This document shows, piece after piece, positions 36,285-60,918 of a stretch of DNA of 64,000 bases. The DNA is from Pyrococcus yayanosii CH1 (GTDB lineage: Archaea > Methanobacteriota_B > Thermococci > Thermococcales > Thermococcaceae). The notes beneath the pieces were generated by a model, which worked only from the letters and a program-made list of their open reading frames with translations, had not been told where the DNA came from and did not search any database. Position numbers and translations under genes: made by a program. How positions within the stretch are numbered: the stretch's first letter is position 1; each line of letters opens with the position of its first letter. The stretch covers positions 930,001 to 994,000 of the forward strand of contig NC_015680.1 of the NCBI RefSeq assembly GCF_000215995.1, given 5' to 3'.

Positions 36285-37277
36285 TCATTCGATAACCTTT
36301 CCACCCCAGCTTTCAAGAAACTCCTTGGCCGAGTTCGCTGCTATAGCCCCCTGACCCACCGCAACGACTATCTGCTTGAAGACGTTGGTTACATCGCCGG
36401 CCGCAAAAATGCCGGGAACCTTGGTGCGCATGTGCATATCTACTTTTATGTAGCCGTACTCGTCCGTTATGCCAAGGTGCTTGACGAAGTCCGTCTTGGG
36501 CTCGTAGCCTATGAATATGAAGACTCCATTGACTTTCTTCTCGAAGGTTTCCCCCGTCTTGACGTTCTTCAGGACGACGGCTTCGACCTTGTCCTTTCCT
36601 TTTATCTCCGTGACGACAGTGTTCAGTATCATGGGTATTTTTGCCTCCCTGAATCTGTCTTGTAGTATCTTATCGGCCCTGAACTCCTCCCTCCTGTGTA
36701 CGAGCGTAACCTTGACGCCAATGCTGTGGAGGTATAACGCCTCTTGAAGGGCGGTATTTCCACCGCCGACGACTATGACCTCCTTACCCACGAAGAGCGG
36801 ACCATCGCAGGTTGCGCAGTAAGAGACGCCCCTGCCCGTGAACTCCCTCTCTCCCGGTACGTTGAGCTTCCGAGGTTCCGCACCAACGGCTATGATTACA
36901 GCCTTAGCCCTGTAGGATTTGTCATTCTTTGTCTTCACGATGAACTGACAAGGGCCTTCGTAGTAAGCGCACTCCGTCTGATCTATGCGAACTACCTCGT
37001 CGAATATCACGCCAACGCCATACTTCCTGACGTGCTCGTACATCCTCTTCGAGAGCTCTGCACCGCTTATGCCATCCGGGAATCCCGGATAGTTCTCTAC
37101 GAGGTCTGTCAGGGCCATGTTGCCACCAAGGTCCTTGCTTATTATCGCCGTATCCAAACCAAAGCGCGCCGCATATATTGCGGCGGTGTAGCCTGCCGGA
37201 CCTGCTCCTATTATTATGACATCCCAAACCTTGCTCTCATCGGTGGCACCCTTCGATAGGGCTCCCAAGCTGAACAT
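36285..37277 (-). CDS. trxB: Thioredoxin reductase
   Basis: 330 residues. FAD-binding GAGPAGYTAAIYAARFG near residue 25, redox-active CATC (Cys154, Cys157), NAD(P)-binding VVGGGNTALQEAL and the C-terminal FAD motif GIFAAGDVTN. It reduces protein disulfide oxidoreductases. It is divergent from frhA. From memory, work on T. onnurineus reported electron transfer from the FrhAGB hydrogenase to this enzyme, which fits the placement. Confidence 0.94.
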   Translation of the reverse strand: MFSLGALSKGATDESKVWDVIIIGAGPAGYTAAIYAARFGLDTAIISKDLGGNMALTDLVENYPGFPDGISGAELSKRMYEHVRKYGVGVIFDEVVRIDQTECAYYEGPCQFIVKTKNDKSYRAKAVIIAVGAEPRKLNVPGEREFTGRGVSYCATCDGPLFVGKEVIVVGGGNTALQEALYLHSIGVKVTLVHRREEFRADKILQDRFREAKIPMILNTVVTEIKGKDKVEAVVLKNVKTGETFEKKVNGVFIFIGYEPKTDFVKHLGITDEYGYIKVDMHMRTKVPGIFAAGDVTNVFKQIVVAVGQGAIAANSAKEFLESWGGKVIE

Positions 37278-37317: not shown

Positions 37318-37329
37318 ATATTTAAAAGC
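37318..37329 (-). promoter_or_regulatory. trxB: TATA box of trxB
   Basis: The minus strand reads GCTTTTAAATAT about 45 bases before the trxB ATG, which also has GGGGGTGAG as its ribosome binding site. Confidence 0.5.
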
Positions 37330-37378
37330 ATTTTGGGACATAATTGGGTATTGAAAATATGTTCATTCTGCCAAAATG

Positions 37379-37389
37379 GGTAAACAAAA
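37379..37389 (+). repeat. 11-bp sequence GGTAAACAAAA, copy 1
   Basis: The same 11 bases recur at 60373-60383 in direct orientation and at 41225-41235 inverted. All three copies are in non-coding gaps of the energy block (trxB-frhA, fdhD-fdhA, upstream of mbhA). Confidence 0.5.
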
Positions 37390-37422
37390 GCGTTTATGAT
37401 TTCGATAATCATCCAAAATTCC

Positions 37423-37439
37423 GTTCTAAACCTCCGGTT
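37423..37439 (+). promoter_or_regulatory. SurR-type binding site upstream of frhA
   Basis: GTTCTAAACCTCCGGTT fits the extended SurR consensus GTTn3AACn5GTT exactly. It ends nine bases before the frhA TATA candidate at 37449-37457, the place expected for an activator, and lies about 145 bases from the divergent trxB start. SurR is the redox-sensitive regulator that activates hydrogenase genes when sulfur is absent in Thermococcales. Confidence 0.65.
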
Positions 37440-37448
37440 CAAAAAACA

Positions 37449-37457
37449 CTTTTATTC
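37449..37457 (+). promoter_or_regulatory. TATA box of the frhAGB genes
   Basis: CTTTTATTC preceded by an A-rich stretch, about 60 bases before the frhA start, directly downstream of the SurR-type site. Confidence 0.45.
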
Positions 37458-37512: not shown

Positions 37513-38688
37513 GTGAGTGAGACCGTCATAAACGAAATCTGCCGGATAGCCGGTGAGGCTAAACTGGTGCTCTACGAGGAGGATGGGATTGTTCAAGATG
37601 CTTTCTTCATTGCAACGGCTCCTGTCAGGGGATTCGAAAAGCTCGTCGTCGGTAAGAATCCCCTCTTCGCGGTCGAAGCCGTCATGAGGATATGCGGCCT
37701 CTGTCATGCATCCCACGGCATAGCGGCGAGTGAAGCCATTGAGAACGCCATAGGTATAACTCCCCCAAGAAATGGACTCCTGATGAGGGAAGCCATTGGA
37801 CTAATTAACAGGGTTCAGAGCCACATCCTCGAGTTTCTCATGGCCGCCGGCGACCTCCTCGCTAAGGAGAAAAGGAACGAAGTCCTCTTCAAGCTTATGG
37901 AGTTCCACGCAAAGATAAGCGATTATCTCTTGAAGCTTGGAGGGGCGGCGACACATCCGCCGAACCTGACCATCGGAGGAATGCTAAGCGTTCCTAAATG
38001 GAGCGTCTTTAACAACCTCAAGGCCCGATTACCGAGCCTTATGAAGAACTGGGAGGAGCTTAGACATCTCCTTACCGATGAGGACATCCAGACGGAAATT
38101 GCCGATGAGCTGAGGGAAAAGAAAGTTGATAGCGAATACCTCGCGACAGGTCTCTTTTACGGAGATAGGTTTAATCTTGAGGTAAAAGGCATAGAGACAA
38201 CCCCATACTATGAATTCAGAAAGGAAAACCAGCATTCTAAAGATTCAACGACTCTTGTGGCCTTCTACAGAGGACATAAGGTAGAAACCGGACCAAGGGC
38301 AAGGATGAAGCTCTACAGAAACTTTAGGGACTCTTCCCTTTATGGACTTCACTTGGCCAGGATAGAGGATACAACGCTTGCCCTTTTGAGATTTGAGGAA
38401 ATTCTCGACGGAATAAAAATGGACCAACCATTTAGAACCGAAAACATAATCTTTGGACCCGGTAAAGGGGTTGGCGTCTATGAGGCGCCGAGAGGGACGC
38501 TAATACACATCGTGGAGCTTGGCGAAGAGGGTAGGGTTATGTCCCTGAAGATAATCGTCCCAACGATGTTCAACATCCCAATAATGGAGGAGATGGCCAA
38601 GGGGCTGAGCGTTAAGGCGGCTGAGGCTAGCGTGAGGCTCTACGATCCGTGTATCCCATGCACAACCCACGTTATTAAGCTGGGGTGA
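37513..38688 (+). CDS. frhA: F420-hydrogenase-like [NiFe] hydrogenase large subunit
   Basis: About 391 residues from GTG at 37513, which has GGGGGTGAT just upstream; an in-frame ATG at 37396 lies before the TATA box and is rejected. The nickel ligands are RICGLCHASH (Cys61, Cys64) and C-terminal DPCIPCTTH. Only five residues follow the last His, much shorter than the cleaved tail of most group 3 enzymes. It belongs with frhG and frhB in a group 3-type enzyme. Since Thermococcus is not known to use F420 for methanogenesis, the real electron partner is more likely thioredoxin reductase or another flavoprotein. Confidence 0.88.
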   Translation: MSETVINEICRIAGEAKLVLYEEDGIVQDAFFIATAPVRGFEKLVVGKNPLFAVEAVMRICGLCHASHGIAASEAIENAIGITPPRNGLLMREAIGLINRVQSHILEFLMAAGDLLAKEKRNEVLFKLMEFHAKISDYLLKLGGAATHPPNLTIGGMLSVPKWSVFNNLKARLPSLMKNWEELRHLLTDEDIQTEIADELREKKVDSEYLATGLFYGDRFNLEVKGIETTPYYEFRKENQHSKDSTTLVAFYRGHKVETGPRARMKLYRNFRDSSLYGLHLARIEDTTLALLRFEEILDGIKMDQPFRTENIIFGPGKGVGVYEAPRGTLIHIVELGEEGRVMSLKIIVPTMFNIPIMEEMAKGLSVKAAEASVRLYDPCIPCTTHVIKLG

Positions 38689-38693
38689 TTCAG

Positions 38694-39374
38694 ATGGAGA
38701 AGCTTAGGGTTCTTCATGTCGATATCGGTGGGTGTGAGGGTTGTAACGTCAGCATAATCCGCGCATACCCAAAGCTTATGGAGCTTATTGACCTAGACAT
38801 AACCTATCTAAGGGACGACGGCCTCAAGTTCGATGACTACGACGTCGCTATTATAACTGGTGGAGTCTGCATGAACGAACCGAGCAAAATTGAAAAGCTT
38901 AAGGATATCAGGGAGAAGGCAGACGTCGTGATAGCCTTTGGTTCCTGCGCGACCTTCGGCGGAATCCTGCGCTTCTGCCGCGGTGGCCAGGAGCCGAGGC
39001 CAGATCACAGGAACTTCCAGCCCATAAACGCCGTGATAAGCATTGATTATTCTATCCCCGGCTGCCCGCCAACACATCAGATGTTTCAGTCCTTCTTCAA
39101 GTTCTTTGTGAGCGGCAATGAAGCCAGATTGAGGCTCTTCAAAGTCAGTGCGAATATAAAGAAGCTGAGCGGCTTTGACCTGCTCGACGACATCGTTCTC
39201 ACGGGCCTCTGCATCGGGTGCGGCGCATGTGAGCTCTCCTGCCCGACGGGTGCCATAAAGCTCATTGACAGGAGGCCTACATTAGTCCAAGAAAGGTGCA
39301 TCCGATGTGGGACGTGTTATATAAGATGTCCGCGCGCTTCTCAGCTTCTATCTATGGGGGGTGAGAGGATATGA
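38694..39374 (+). CDS. frhG: F420-hydrogenase-like small (gamma) subunit with two [4Fe-4S] clusters
   Basis: 226 residues from the ATG at 38694 (GGGGTGAT upstream, inside the frhA end). The N-terminal [NiFe] small-subunit domain has the proximal-cluster ligands GGCEGC (Cys14, Cys17), GSCATFGG and PGCPPTHQ. A C-terminal 2[4Fe-4S] ferredoxin domain has CIGCGACELSCP and CIRCGTCYIRCP. It wires the active site to FrhB. Confidence 0.9.
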   Translation: MEKLRVLHVDIGGCEGCNVSIIRAYPKLMELIDLDITYLRDDGLKFDDYDVAIITGGVCMNEPSKIEKLKDIREKADVVIAFGSCATFGGILRFCRGGQEPRPDHRNFQPINAVISIDYSIPGCPPTHQMFQSFFKFFVSGNEARLRLFKVSANIKKLSGFDLLDDIVLTGLCIGCGACELSCPTGAIKLIDRRPTLVQERCIRCGTCYIRCPRASQLLSMGGERI

Positions 39375-40201
39375 TGGTTACCCCCGACAACCTACTCGGT
39401 AGCGTGGTGGGGGTGTACCTCGCAAGGGCAAAGGATGAAGAGATACTCAAGAGGAAAGTAGCAAGCGGCGGTGCGGTTACCGCGATGCTAATCTACGCCC
39501 TTGAAAAAGGCCTCATAGATGGCGTCGTGACGGCAAAGAGGGTTAGCGGATTTGAAGGGCAGGCCGTTGTTGCGAGGACTAGAGAGGAGATACTTGAAAC
39601 CGCAGGTAACAAGTGGAGTATAGTTCCCTTTGCGGCGAGGGTGAAAGCTAAGATTGAGGAAGAAGATCTCAAGAAAGTTGCCATTGTCTGCCTGCCCTGT
39701 CAGGCCCAGTTCTTCGGCCAGATGAGAGAGTTCCCAATACTGGAAACGGACTTTGGAGAACGGATAAGGTACATCGTAAGTCTGTTCTGTATGGGAACCT
39801 TCGCCTTTGAAGCCTTCCTGAACTACTTAAGGATGAAGTATGACATAAAGGCAGAGGAGATAAAGAACATGGCTCTCAAGGAAGGCTTCCTCGAGATACA
39901 GCATGATGACTCCCTCTTACAGCTACCTCTTAAAGAAGTTTACTCCTATCTCCAGACCGGTTGCCTTGTCTGCGCCGATTATACGGGAACTTGGAGCGAT
40001 ATATCGGCGGGCTTTATCGAAAAAGAGAAGGGCTGGACTGTCATCATAACGCGCAATGCCCGTGGGGAGGAGCTGGTTAAGGGGGCGGAGAAGGAGGGAT
40101 ACCTCGAGGTGCGTGATGGTTCCCAGGTGATGGGAGATATCCTCAGGGCAGCGAGGGAGAAGCTTGCTAGGGCGCAGAGGAACATGATGAGCCTGCTTTG
40201 A
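39371..40201 (+). CDS. frhB: F420-hydrogenase-like beta subunit (FrhB family flavoprotein)
   Basis: 276 residues. The family hallmark KVASGGAVTAMLIYALEKGLID sits near residue 25, with CLPCQAQ near 115 and CLVCADYTG near 200 as Fe-S/FAD-site cysteines. FrhB-family proteins hold FAD and a [4Fe-4S] cluster and pass electrons to F420 or, in other enzymes, to other acceptors. The start codon overlaps the frhG stop. Confidence 0.88.
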   Translation: MMVTPDNLLGSVVGVYLARAKDEEILKRKVASGGAVTAMLIYALEKGLIDGVVTAKRVSGFEGQAVVARTREEILETAGNKWSIVPFAARVKAKIEEEDLKKVAIVCLPCQAQFFGQMREFPILETDFGERIRYIVSLFCMGTFAFEAFLNYLRMKYDIKAEEIKNMALKEGFLEIQHDDSLLQLPLKEVYSYLQTGCLVCADYTGTWSDISAGFIEKEKGWTVIITRNARGEELVKGAEKEGYLEVRDGSQVMGDILRAAREKLARAQRNMMSLL

Positions 40202-40231: not shown

Positions 40232-40990
40232 GTGATTAAAAAAGTAAAAGTAATTAAGTGGCAGGGTGACCTCACAGAGACAGAGGATTACGTCTGCGTT
40301 GAGGAGACCTTTGAGATATTTGCGGTGTATGAAGGTCAGAAAGAATTTATCGCCGAGTTACCAGCTTCTCCAAGTCAACTCAAAGAGCTTGGAGCCGGGT
40401 TTCTTGTCTGCGAGGGACTTGCAGAGCAGGAAGATATTATGGACGTTTGGGTTGATGGGAACAGAATTTACGTGGAGATTGGAAGACCTCCTATCTATGG
40501 GAGACTGATGAAGATACACTCCCCTTGTGGTGACCCTTACAGGGCTAGAACCGGAAAAACCAAAGGGACCAACGGTGGAGACCTAAAGGTTTCCCCCGAC
40601 CTCATCCTACGAATTTCCTCCGCGATGACAACACTGCCCGAGACGTGGAAGAAAACTGGTGGAACTCATTGGGCCGCCCTCTTCGAGTTGAACGCCAACA
40701 TCGTGGCCTTCAGTGAGGACATAGGTAGACACAACGCCATTGACAAGGTCGTCGGGCACGCCGTTTTAAACGGGATGGACCTTGGAAAACTAATCTTAGC
40801 TTCGAGTGGCAGGATGCCGTATGGAATGGTAAAGAAAGTCGTTAACGCCGGCATCCCCATTGTCGTAACGAAGTCCCCTCCAACTGATAAGGGTGTGGAG
40901 CTCGCCAAGAGATACGGGGTAACGCTCATAGGCTTCGCAAGGGGAGGCCGCTTCAACGTTTATGCAGGGGAAGAGAGGTTGGCTTTCTGA
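40232..40990 (+). CDS. fdhD: Formate dehydrogenase accessory sulfurtransferase FdhD
   Basis: 252 residues, GTG start with GGAGGTGGTG upstream. It delivers sulfur to the Mo/W-bis-pterin cofactor of FDH. The family block GGTHWAALF...FSEDIGRHNAIDKVVG is clear. The flexible loop that in E. coli has CxxC reads HSPCGDPYRARTG here (about residue 95), so only one cysteine is present. It lies between the frh genes and fdhA, on the same strand. Confidence 0.92.
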   Translation: MIKKVKVIKWQGDLTETEDYVCVEETFEIFAVYEGQKEFIAELPASPSQLKELGAGFLVCEGLAEQEDIMDVWVDGNRIYVEIGRPPIYGRLMKIHSPCGDPYRARTGKTKGTNGGDLKVSPDLILRISSAMTTLPETWKKTGGTHWAALFELNANIVAFSEDIGRHNAIDKVVGHAVLNGMDLGKLILASSGRMPYGMVKKVVNAGIPIVVTKSPPTDKGVELAKRYGVTLIGFARGGRFNVYAGEERLAF

Positions 40991-41235: not shown

Positions 41236-41318
41236 TTCAGGAGGCGCAGTATACAAATTAAGTCAAGGAAACTCTTCGACGACTTTATTTAGGCTGTACT
41301 AGGCGATTGTAACCTTTT

Positions 41319-41327
41319 GTTAAAAAC
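41319..41327 (+). promoter_or_regulatory. SurR-core-like site upstream of fdhA
   Basis: GTTAAAAAC fits the core GTTn3AAC but the third GTT half expected five bases later is GGG. It sits about 16 bases before the fdhA TATA candidate. Weak compared with the frhA and mbh sites. Confidence 0.25.
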
Positions 41328-41450: not shown

Positions 41451-43586
41451 ATGAGTGAAAGGCTCGTCCCCGTGGTCTGCCCCTACTGTGGTGTGGGGTG
41501 TAGACTCTACATTAGAAGTGTCGATGGATATCCCGTAGGCATAGAATACGCCAAAGACATTCCGGGCATTGCAAACGAGCTCGGTAAGCTCTGTCCTAAG
41601 GGTAACGCCGTCATCGAATATCTCCTCGCCAAAGACAGGCTCAAAAAGCCGCTCAAGGCCAAGGAGCAGGGCAAGTTCGTTGAGATCAGCTGGAGTGAGG
41701 CGATAAGAGAGGTGGCCGAAAGACTCAAGGACTATGCCAAGGACGACCCGAATCAGCTCATGTTCTTCGGTTCCGCAAGAACGTTCAACGAGCCCAACTA
41801 CCTCATTCAGAAGTTGGCCAGAATGCTTGGAACTAATAACGTGGACCACTGTGCAAGGCTCTGCCACGCGCCCACCGTTACAGGCCTCAAGGCCATTTTT
41901 GGTGCCGGTGCAATGACTAACACCTACAAGGACATCGAGGAGGCGAACGTTATCTTCATCATCGGCCACAACTACGCCGAGACACATCCTGTTGGCTTCC
42001 GTTACGTTCTCAAGGCTAAGGAAAGGGGTGCCAAGATTATAGTCGCTGATCCGAGGTTCACGAGAACAGCTTGGTTTGCCGATATATTCCTCCAGCACTA
42101 CCCCGGAACGGACATCGCACTGATAAACGGCCTTATTCATATCATAATCAAGGAGAGGCTCTATGATGAGAAATTTGTAAGGGAGAGGTGCGTAGGCTTC
42201 GATGAGGTCGTCAAGGCTGTTGAGAAGTTCACGCCCGAATTCGTTGAGAAAGTTACTGGCGTCCCAGCCGAACTCATCATCCAGGCCGCAAGGACCTTCG
42301 CAACTGCTGGAAAGGGCGTCATAACTTGGGCTATGGGTCTTACCCAGCATACTCACGGAACTGAGAATGTTAAGCTTCTTGGAACGCTCTCCGCAATATG
42401 TGGCTACCAAGGAAAGGAGGGGTGCGGTTGTTCTCCAATGCGTGGTCAGAACAATGTCCAGGGAGCCTGTGATATGGCCGCTTTGCCCAACGTCTTCCCA
42501 GGTTACCAGGCGGTTACTGACCCGGAGAAGAGGAAGTTCTTCGAGGAGTTCTGGGGAGTTGAGCTGAACGGCGAAGTGGGCCTGACGACGATAGAAGCTG
42601 CATATGCCGCTGAGAAGGGCAAGGTCAAGGCCTACTACATTATGGGTGAGAATCCAGTTATAAGCGAGGCCAACGCGAATCACGTGGTGCATGTCCTCCA
42701 GAAGCTCGAATTCATAGTTGTCCAAGATATAGTCCCGACCCCAACCATGGAGTTTGCCGATATCGTTCTGCCGGCTGCCGCAATGCTCGAGAATGAAGGT
42801 TCCCTTACTAATACCGAAAGGCGCGTGCAGTGGAGCTTCCAGGCTATCAATCCGCCGGGAGAAGCTAGGCCTGACTGGTGGATACTCAGCGAGATAGGAA
42901 AGGCCGTTGGCTTCGATGGTCAGGGTCCGAAGGGTTTCGACTACACTAGTCCAGAAGATATTCTAAGGGAAATTAATGCCTGCACGCCCCAGTATCGCGG
43001 CATAACCCCTGAGAGACTTAAGGAAAACCTCGCAGGAATTCACTGGCCGTGCCCGAGCCCGGACCATCCAGGAACGAGAGTTCTTTACAAGGATAAGTTC
43101 CTAACCCCAGATGGAAAAGCGCACCTTGTGGCCGTTTCAGAATACAAGGGACCGGTCGAGCTTCCGGACGAGGAGTATCCGTTCCTCCTGACTACTATGA
43201 GATACGTCGGCCAGTACCACACTGTAACCATGACCATGAGGACCCAAGCCCTCAGGAAGCGCTGGCCAGAACCGTTGGCAGAGATACACCCCGAAGATGC
43301 GGCTAAGCTTGGAATAAAAGATGGAGACTGGGTTAAGATAGTCACAAGGAGGGGAGAATACCCAATAAAGGCCAAGGTGACCAGAACCGTTAAGAAGGGC
43401 GTCATAGCGGTTCCATGGCACTGGGGAGCTAATGTCCTTACCAATGACGCCCTTGATCCGATCGCGAAGATACCGGAGACCAAGGCCTGTGCCTGTAAGG
43501 TCATCAAGATAACCGAGGAAGATGCAAGGAAGCTCATGGACAAGCTTCCGCAACTCATACCTAAGATTGAGATTGTGAGGGGGTGA
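41451..43586 (+). CDS. fdhA: Formate dehydrogenase catalytic subunit (Mo/W-bis-pterin)
   Basis: 711 residues. The N-terminal [4Fe-4S] ligands are Cys10, Cys13, Cys17 and Cys48. VDHCARLCHAPT places Cys138 where E. coli FdhH has selenocysteine, with the adjacent catalytic His139. The C-terminal molybdopterin dinucleotide-binding domain starts near 590 (LLTTMRYVGQYHTVTMT). It oxidises formate to CO2. Length and lack of a Tat signal fit the soluble FdhF/FdhH type, docked to the membrane hydrogenase by the ferredoxin encoded five bases downstream. Confidence 0.95.
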   Translation: MSERLVPVVCPYCGVGCRLYIRSVDGYPVGIEYAKDIPGIANELGKLCPKGNAVIEYLLAKDRLKKPLKAKEQGKFVEISWSEAIREVAERLKDYAKDDPNQLMFFGSARTFNEPNYLIQKLARMLGTNNVDHCARLCHAPTVTGLKAIFGAGAMTNTYKDIEEANVIFIIGHNYAETHPVGFRYVLKAKERGAKIIVADPRFTRTAWFADIFLQHYPGTDIALINGLIHIIIKERLYDEKFVRERCVGFDEVVKAVEKFTPEFVEKVTGVPAELIIQAARTFATAGKGVITWAMGLTQHTHGTENVKLLGTLSAICGYQGKEGCGCSPMRGQNNVQGACDMAALPNVFPGYQAVTDPEKRKFFEEFWGVELNGEVGLTTIEAAYAAEKGKVKAYYIMGENPVISEANANHVVHVLQKLEFIVVQDIVPTPTMEFADIVLPAAAMLENEGSLTNTERRVQWSFQAINPPGEARPDWWILSEIGKAVGFDGQGPKGFDYTSPEDILREINACTPQYRGITPERLKENLAGIHWPCPSPDHPGTRVLYKDKFLTPDGKAHLVAVSEYKGPVELPDEEYPFLLTTMRYVGQYHTVTMTMRTQALRKRWPEPLAEIHPEDAAKLGIKDGDWVKIVTRRGEYPIKAKVTRTVKKGVIAVPWHWGANVLTNDALDPIAKIPETKACACKVIKITEEDARKLMDKLPQLIPKIEIVRG

Positions 43587-60273: not shown

Positions 60274-60281
60274 AACCTTTG

Positions 60282-60298
60282 GTTGAAAACAGCCAGTT
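60282..60298 (+). promoter_or_regulatory. SurR-type binding site upstream of mbh
   Basis: GTTGAAAACAGCCAGTT matches GTTn3AACn5GTT exactly and runs directly into the TTTTATA box at 60297-60303. In P. furiosus SurR binds this motif at mbh and activates it when sulfur is absent (established), so the site is expected here. Confidence 0.72.
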
Positions 60299-60383: not shown

Positions 60384-60414
60384 CAATCTAATTCGAGTCC
60401 GGGAGGTGTCAGGG

Positions 60415-60918
60415 TTGTCGTTTATCGCGGCCTTCGCTTGGTCCTATATCCTCTGGCTCGTCCTCACCGCGGGTAGCAAGGGATTACTATGGAGCACGCA
60501 GGAGCTCGTGGCGGGCTTAATATTCTCAGCCATCGTGGGCTACGCGACGAGGGGGATAATAGGGGATAAGGCGGTAAGATTCCTAAATCCAGTGAAGTGG
60601 GTTCTTGCGATAGCCTATACTCCCGTGCTCTTCTGGGGCATGGTCAAAGCAAACTTTGACGTTGCCTACAGGGTCATAACAGGAAAGATAAGGCCCGGCA
60701 TAGTCAAGGTTCCCGTCAACCTTGAAAACGATGCCCAGTATGCAATCCTCAGCAACTCAATAACCCTAACCCCGGGAACCCTAACGGTGGACGCCTGCCC
60801 CGAAGAGAAAGCCCTGTACGTTCACTGGATAAACATCCCCGAAGGCCTTGAGTGGCCCGAGAACTCGGAGCCCGTCTCAGGCCCATTTGAAAGATGGGCG
60901 AGGAGGTTGGGAGAATGA
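60415..60918 (+). CDS. mbhA: Membrane-bound hydrogenase subunit MbhA (MnhE-like)
   Basis: 167 residues from TTG at 60415, which has GGAGGTG six bases upstream; that site overlaps the in-frame GTG at 60406. MnhE-like: membrane helices, then RPGIVKVPVNL...LSNSITLTPGTLTVD. First gene of the respiratory Mbh complex, which oxidises ferredoxin, makes H2 and drives Na+ export. Confidence 0.9.
   Translation: MSFIAAFAWSYILWLVLTAGSKGLLWSTQELVAGLIFSAIVGYATRGIIGDKAVRFLNPVKWVLAIAYTPVLFWGMVKANFDVAYRVITGKIRPGIVKVPVNLENDAQYAILSNSITLTPGTLTVDACPEEKALYVHWINIPEGLEWPENSEPVSGPFERWARRLGE

Follow-up and report, generated by a model that had tools for sequence, protein, structure and literature searches.

A predicted SurR site at the activator position of the frhAGB hydrogenase promoter in Pyrococcus yayanosii

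Results

The frhA–trxB intergenic region

The window analyzed here is a 64,000-nucleotide stretch of the Pyrococcus yayanosii CH1 genome (contig NC_015680.1, positions 930,001 to 994,000), in which an Frh-type hydrogenase operon, frhAGB, diverges from trxB across a gap of 235 bp (Table 1). The frh–formate-hydrogenlyase block sits between trxB and mbhA. The original prediction was that this gap contains an exact GTTn3AACn5GTT motif, the extended recognition motif of the sulfur-sensing regulator SurR, just 5′ of the frhA TATA box. Both parts of that statement were confirmed, as GTTCTAAACCTCCGGTT is read on the + strand and ends 10 bp before TTTTAT, i.e., upstream of the BRE/TATA.

The GTG start codon of frhA is preceded by the Shine-Dalgarno sequence GGGGGTGATC. 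An earlier start at 37396, called by the ORF tool, would take the gene through its own promoter; the orthologues support 37513. A TATA-like sequence, AAAAGCGTTTATGA, is present at 37383–37400 (+) and is kept in all three genomes of the genus that have frh. It may represent a second promoter farther upstream, and SurR sitting at 37423 would then overlap the start region of that promoter.

Table 1. Features of the window and of related trxB promoters relevant to predicted SurR control
Feature	Position	Strand	Basis and remarks
trxB, thioredoxin-disulfide reductase	36285–37277	-	TIGR01292 above cut-off; only close homologue in genome, next best 30% identity
trxB TATA/BRE TTTTAAAT	37320–37333	-	TATA ~37320–37327; conserved in genus; 95 bp from SurR motif
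Predicted SurR extended recognition motif GTTCTAAACCTCCGGTT, activator position for frhA	37423–37439	+	Exact GTTn3AACn5GTT; kept in frhA orthologues
frhA BRE CAAAAAACAC and TATA box TTTTAT (37450–37455)	37440–37455	+	No variation in TTTTAT or in the adjoining C and AAA across 29 loci
frhA, Frh-type [NiFe]-hydrogenase large subunit, GTG start	37513–38688	+	TIGR03295 E 2e-82, below F420-hydrogenase cut-off
frhG, hydrogenase small subunit	38685–39374	+	TIGR03294 E 4e-62
frhB	39371–40201	+	NF006807 E 4e-60
fdhD, formate dehydrogenase accessory sulfurtransferase	40232–40990	+	TIGR00129 above cut-off
Another exact extended SurR motif, 5′ of the fdhA promoter	41311–41327	-	fdhA 41451–43586, TIGR01591
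Two exact extended SurR motifs, overlapping each other, 5′ of mbhA	60274–60298	.	mbhA 60406–60918, NF006245
trxB promoters with a TATA-downstream site (other genomes)			L087, L088, L090, L094, L095, L102, L103, L106, L108, L115, L118–L120, L122–L124, L126, L127

Conservation of the motif upstream of frhA

The comparative set comprised 94 Thermococcaceae genomes, and among the loci fetched from them 30 encode FrhA-like proteins (58–100% identity); frhAGB occurs in about a third of the family genomes searched. The orthologue set consists of 29 frhA loci, with a divergent second copy (L057, genome G088) counted apart. The motif lies 5′ of frhA in all 29 orthologues, with identical orientation and a motif-to-TATA spacing of exactly 10 bp in every case. 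It is exact in 24, while the other five, which form one group with ~67% FrhA identity, share a single change (G-to-A, giving ATT for the first GTT). Across the 29 loci the invariant bases comprise eight of the nine specified by the motif, one of the eight spacer bases and none of the 20 bases upstream (specified versus spacer P = 0.003, phylogeny ignored). This conservation, together with the fixed spacing, argues that the site has a function within the frhA promoter, where it occupies the reported activator position.

Two observations were counted against the SurR reading, the first-triplet mismatch in the five orthologues and the absence of the motif at the divergent second frhA copy. Counted in favor of it was the absence of such a motif at FrhA relatives outside Thermococci, in Njordarchaeota and Thermoplasmata (loci L136–L139). 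Four genomes of genus g5 (G087, G088, G089, and G090) have two FrhA-type copies close together, G088 being the one whose second copy is missing the motif. In another genome frhA appears to be broken (G022:C1:1102378-1103531), with its two pieces in different stretches, one of them with an internal TGA.

The motif and the trxB promoter

It had also been proposed that SurR acts from this one site on both promoters of the gap, activating frhA and modulating trxB, so that a single switch would govern the sensing of sulfur, the use of H2 and the reduction of disulfides. In favor of this, both genes border the same gap, and in five other genomes of the genus, which are without frh, trxB likewise diverges from a hydrogenase operon with a SurR site, here mbh, the exact motif lying beside the mbhA start. 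It is also in keeping with a link between H2 and disulfides at the protein level, as electron transfer from Frh to TrxR is reported (Jung 2020, as cited in PMC10025317), and with the existence of a SurR site at trxB in other Thermococcaceae.

Against it, 95 bp separate the motif from the trxB TATA box, compared with 10 bp at frhA and 12 bp, from TATA start to motif start, where trxB has a site of its own, and in this genome no SurR motif is found next to the trxB TATA box on either side. Only three of the 29 orthologous loci have trxB adjoining frhA (G000, G007, and G011, which belong to the same genus as the window), and frhA keeps the motif in the 26 that do not. The mbh-type arrangement puts its exact site beside the mbhA start, still farther from trxB, and in T. 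piezophilus trxR is without a SurR motif (PMC8595942). Conservation of the proximal trxB promoter extends over the frh-type and mbh-type arrangements, and in neither, within the window's genus, does this promoter contain a SurR motif. The two genes are indeed adjacent, but with this distance and a motif-free proximal promoter the site is poorly positioned for acting on trxB. Shared divergent control was thus rejected on distance and the comparative loci; we regard it as unlikely, and 37423–37439 most likely does not control trxB. The protein-level link between Frh and TrxR can exist without this site co-regulating their genes.

Directly 5′ of the trxB BRE there is a conserved element of a different kind, approximately TACnCAnnTnTGnnCAAnAATGC (37320–37352, - strand), which also occurs in the trxB promoters of other genomes and is possibly the site of another regulator, perhaps one of oxidative stress.

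SurR motifs at trxB in other lineages

Among 70 Thermococcaceae trxB promoters, 18 carry the long SurR motif as an exact match in inverted orientation, immediately after the TATA box (Table 1), which is the reported repressor position. In 17 of these the motif starts 12 bp from the TATA start and lies 30–33 bp before the ATG. The arrangement was found in all nine genomes of genus g4 that were searched and is absent, among these 70 promoters, from the window's genus. No mention of TATA-downstream sites at trxB was found in the SurR literature examined; the sites may be new, with their novelty uncertain because the key survey of Lipscomb 2017 lies outside this literature comparison. A trxB site and frh appear to occur together rarely, the operon being present in two of the 18 genomes with a trxB site versus 22 of the 52 without. 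We do not claim an anticorrelation, since Fisher's P is 0.02 over all genomes and rises to 0.45, which is not significant, within genus g3.

Other SurR sites and the regulator in this genome

The genome encodes SurR itself (L026:1559-2251), identified by a full-length match to the solved P. furiosus SurR PF0095 (2qlz, 2quf), with its CxxC, CMEC, in the N-terminal winged helix; this CxxC is the redox switch of SurR (PMC12162507). The gene lies beside one of the intergenic sites and is divergent from a gene with thioredoxin/glutaredoxin domains, as in Pdo. Besides surR/pdo, intergenic sites of the genome adjoin genes for HypF, a HycI-type maturation protease, an acyl-CoA ligase, an ArsR-type regulator, a 4Fe-4S subunit resembling the sulfhydrogenase beta subunit, and a pyridine nucleotide-disulfide oxidoreductase, which we infer to be NSR-like. 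These neighbors correspond in outline to the known SurR regulon. The two motifs of the mbhA pair are in opposite orientations, whereas in the frh-less relatives only one exact site adjoins the mbhA start.

These sites bear on whether the conserved element at frhA might belong to another regulator, or be an extended BRE-proximal element, rather than a SurR site. In favor of such an identity, conservation continues through the BRE, where C and AAA are invariant, and SurR binding at 37423–37439 is a prediction from sequence. However, conservation of the element follows the published SurR pattern exactly, variable spacers included, and the same pattern is common to the mbh, fdhA, and surR/pdo promoters of this genome, which makes a non-SurR identity very improbable.

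The window contains four exact long motifs versus 0.21 expected, a 20-fold excess (0 of 100 shuffles reach four), and all four are intergenic, although by our own gene calls non-coding sequence makes up only ~4% of the window. The whole genome yields 27 matches versus 10 for a control pattern read backwards. It had been suggested that such a count be made, with many matches in coding sequence leaving the motif uninformative; by codon-model gene calls ~17 of the 27 are intergenic and ~10 coding, the latter equal to the control number. Since ~17 of 27 is far above expectation at any reasonable non-coding fraction (binomial P 2e-8 even for a genome that is 15% non-coding), the matches in coding sequence do not deprive the motif of meaning. 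The short form GTTn3AAC, with 18 occurrences in the window versus 10 expected, is weak evidence by itself. A functionless chance match at 37423–37439, for which the commonness of the short form and the ~10 coding matches of the long form might speak, was rejected as having a negligible likelihood in view of the window excess and the fixed spacing in all orthologues.

Discussion

We consider it highly probable that 37423–37439 is a SurR site dedicated to the frhAGB promoter, which it would activate when sulfur is absent. The motif is exact, lies 5′ of the BRE/TATA in a genome that encodes a SurR with the CxxC, and is thereby predicted to occupy the activator position, according to the rule that a SurR site 5′ of the BRE/TATA means activation (PMC12162507). 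Control of frhAGB by SurR, as originally predicted, is strongly supported by conservation, position, matching sites elsewhere in the genome, and published proteomics of T. onnurineus, in which the Frh subunits were detected on formate and starch and not on sulfur (PMC4463584). That control has already been proposed in print and is not new (PMC10025317, PMC8595942).

Binding, activation and the sulfur response at the frhA promoter are what we infer from these data, and the regulatory steps, all of them predictions, would be as follows. When sulfur is absent, reduced SurR, with its CxxC in the dithiol form, would bind immediately 5′ of the BRE/TATA at frhA and recruit or stabilize the transcription machinery, turning frhAGB on. 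When sulfur is present, the CxxC would be oxidized, SurR would leave, and frhAGB expression would fall. The same regulator would serve fdhA and mbhA via their own sites, and because SurR sites precede these genes as well, we propose that frh, the formate hydrogenlyase, and mbh constitute one SurR regulon block.

A loop from Frh through TrxR and Pdo to SurR has been proposed (PMC10025317). By this hypothesis H2 would be sensed via Frh, with TrxR and Pdo passing the signal back to SurR, and the present analysis gives it a concrete, testable form; the family-wide footprint confirms the predicted place of frhAGB in the SurR regulon, and control of frhA is separated from that of trxB. If the trxB promoter sites are real, about a quarter of the family would regulate TrxR itself in response to sulfur. 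We tentatively suggest, as a possibility that is rather less than even, that SurR is wired to the TrxR arm responsible for its re-reduction, and that the wiring takes two forms depending on the lineage, either direct repression of trxB through the TATA-downstream site (18 of 70 genomes) or activation of Frh, which is reported to feed electrons to TrxR; both wirings, if true, would close a feedback loop on the redox state of SurR.

The site at frhA shares its motif, its position 5′ of the BRE/TATA, and its target class with the SurR regulon of Thermococcales, in which GTTn3AACn5GTT occurs at mbh, SH-I/II, hyp, mbs, nsr, and pdo. Both surR and pdo are encoded here too, and nothing essential is different, except that the target is frhAGB, which is absent from P. 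furiosus. The T. piezophilus promoter for a hydrogenase of the F420-reducing type also has a long SurR motif 5′ of the first gene, at 71 bp versus 90 bp here (PMC8595942, Table 2), whereas its motif-free trxR is unlinked, unlike the trxB that adjoins frhA here. There is also a close likeness to the frh-fhl-mbh (Group 1) cluster; a survey that included P. yayanosii places a SurR motif just 5′ of the BRE/TATA in the frh, fhl, nfd, and mbh promoters (PMC10025317). The architecture is the same in the window, where the order also agrees with the published one, the formate cluster PYCH_11030-200 preceding mbh PYCH_11230-360 (PMC4890121); trxB lies beside frhA only in this genus and elsewhere in other frh-bearing genomes.
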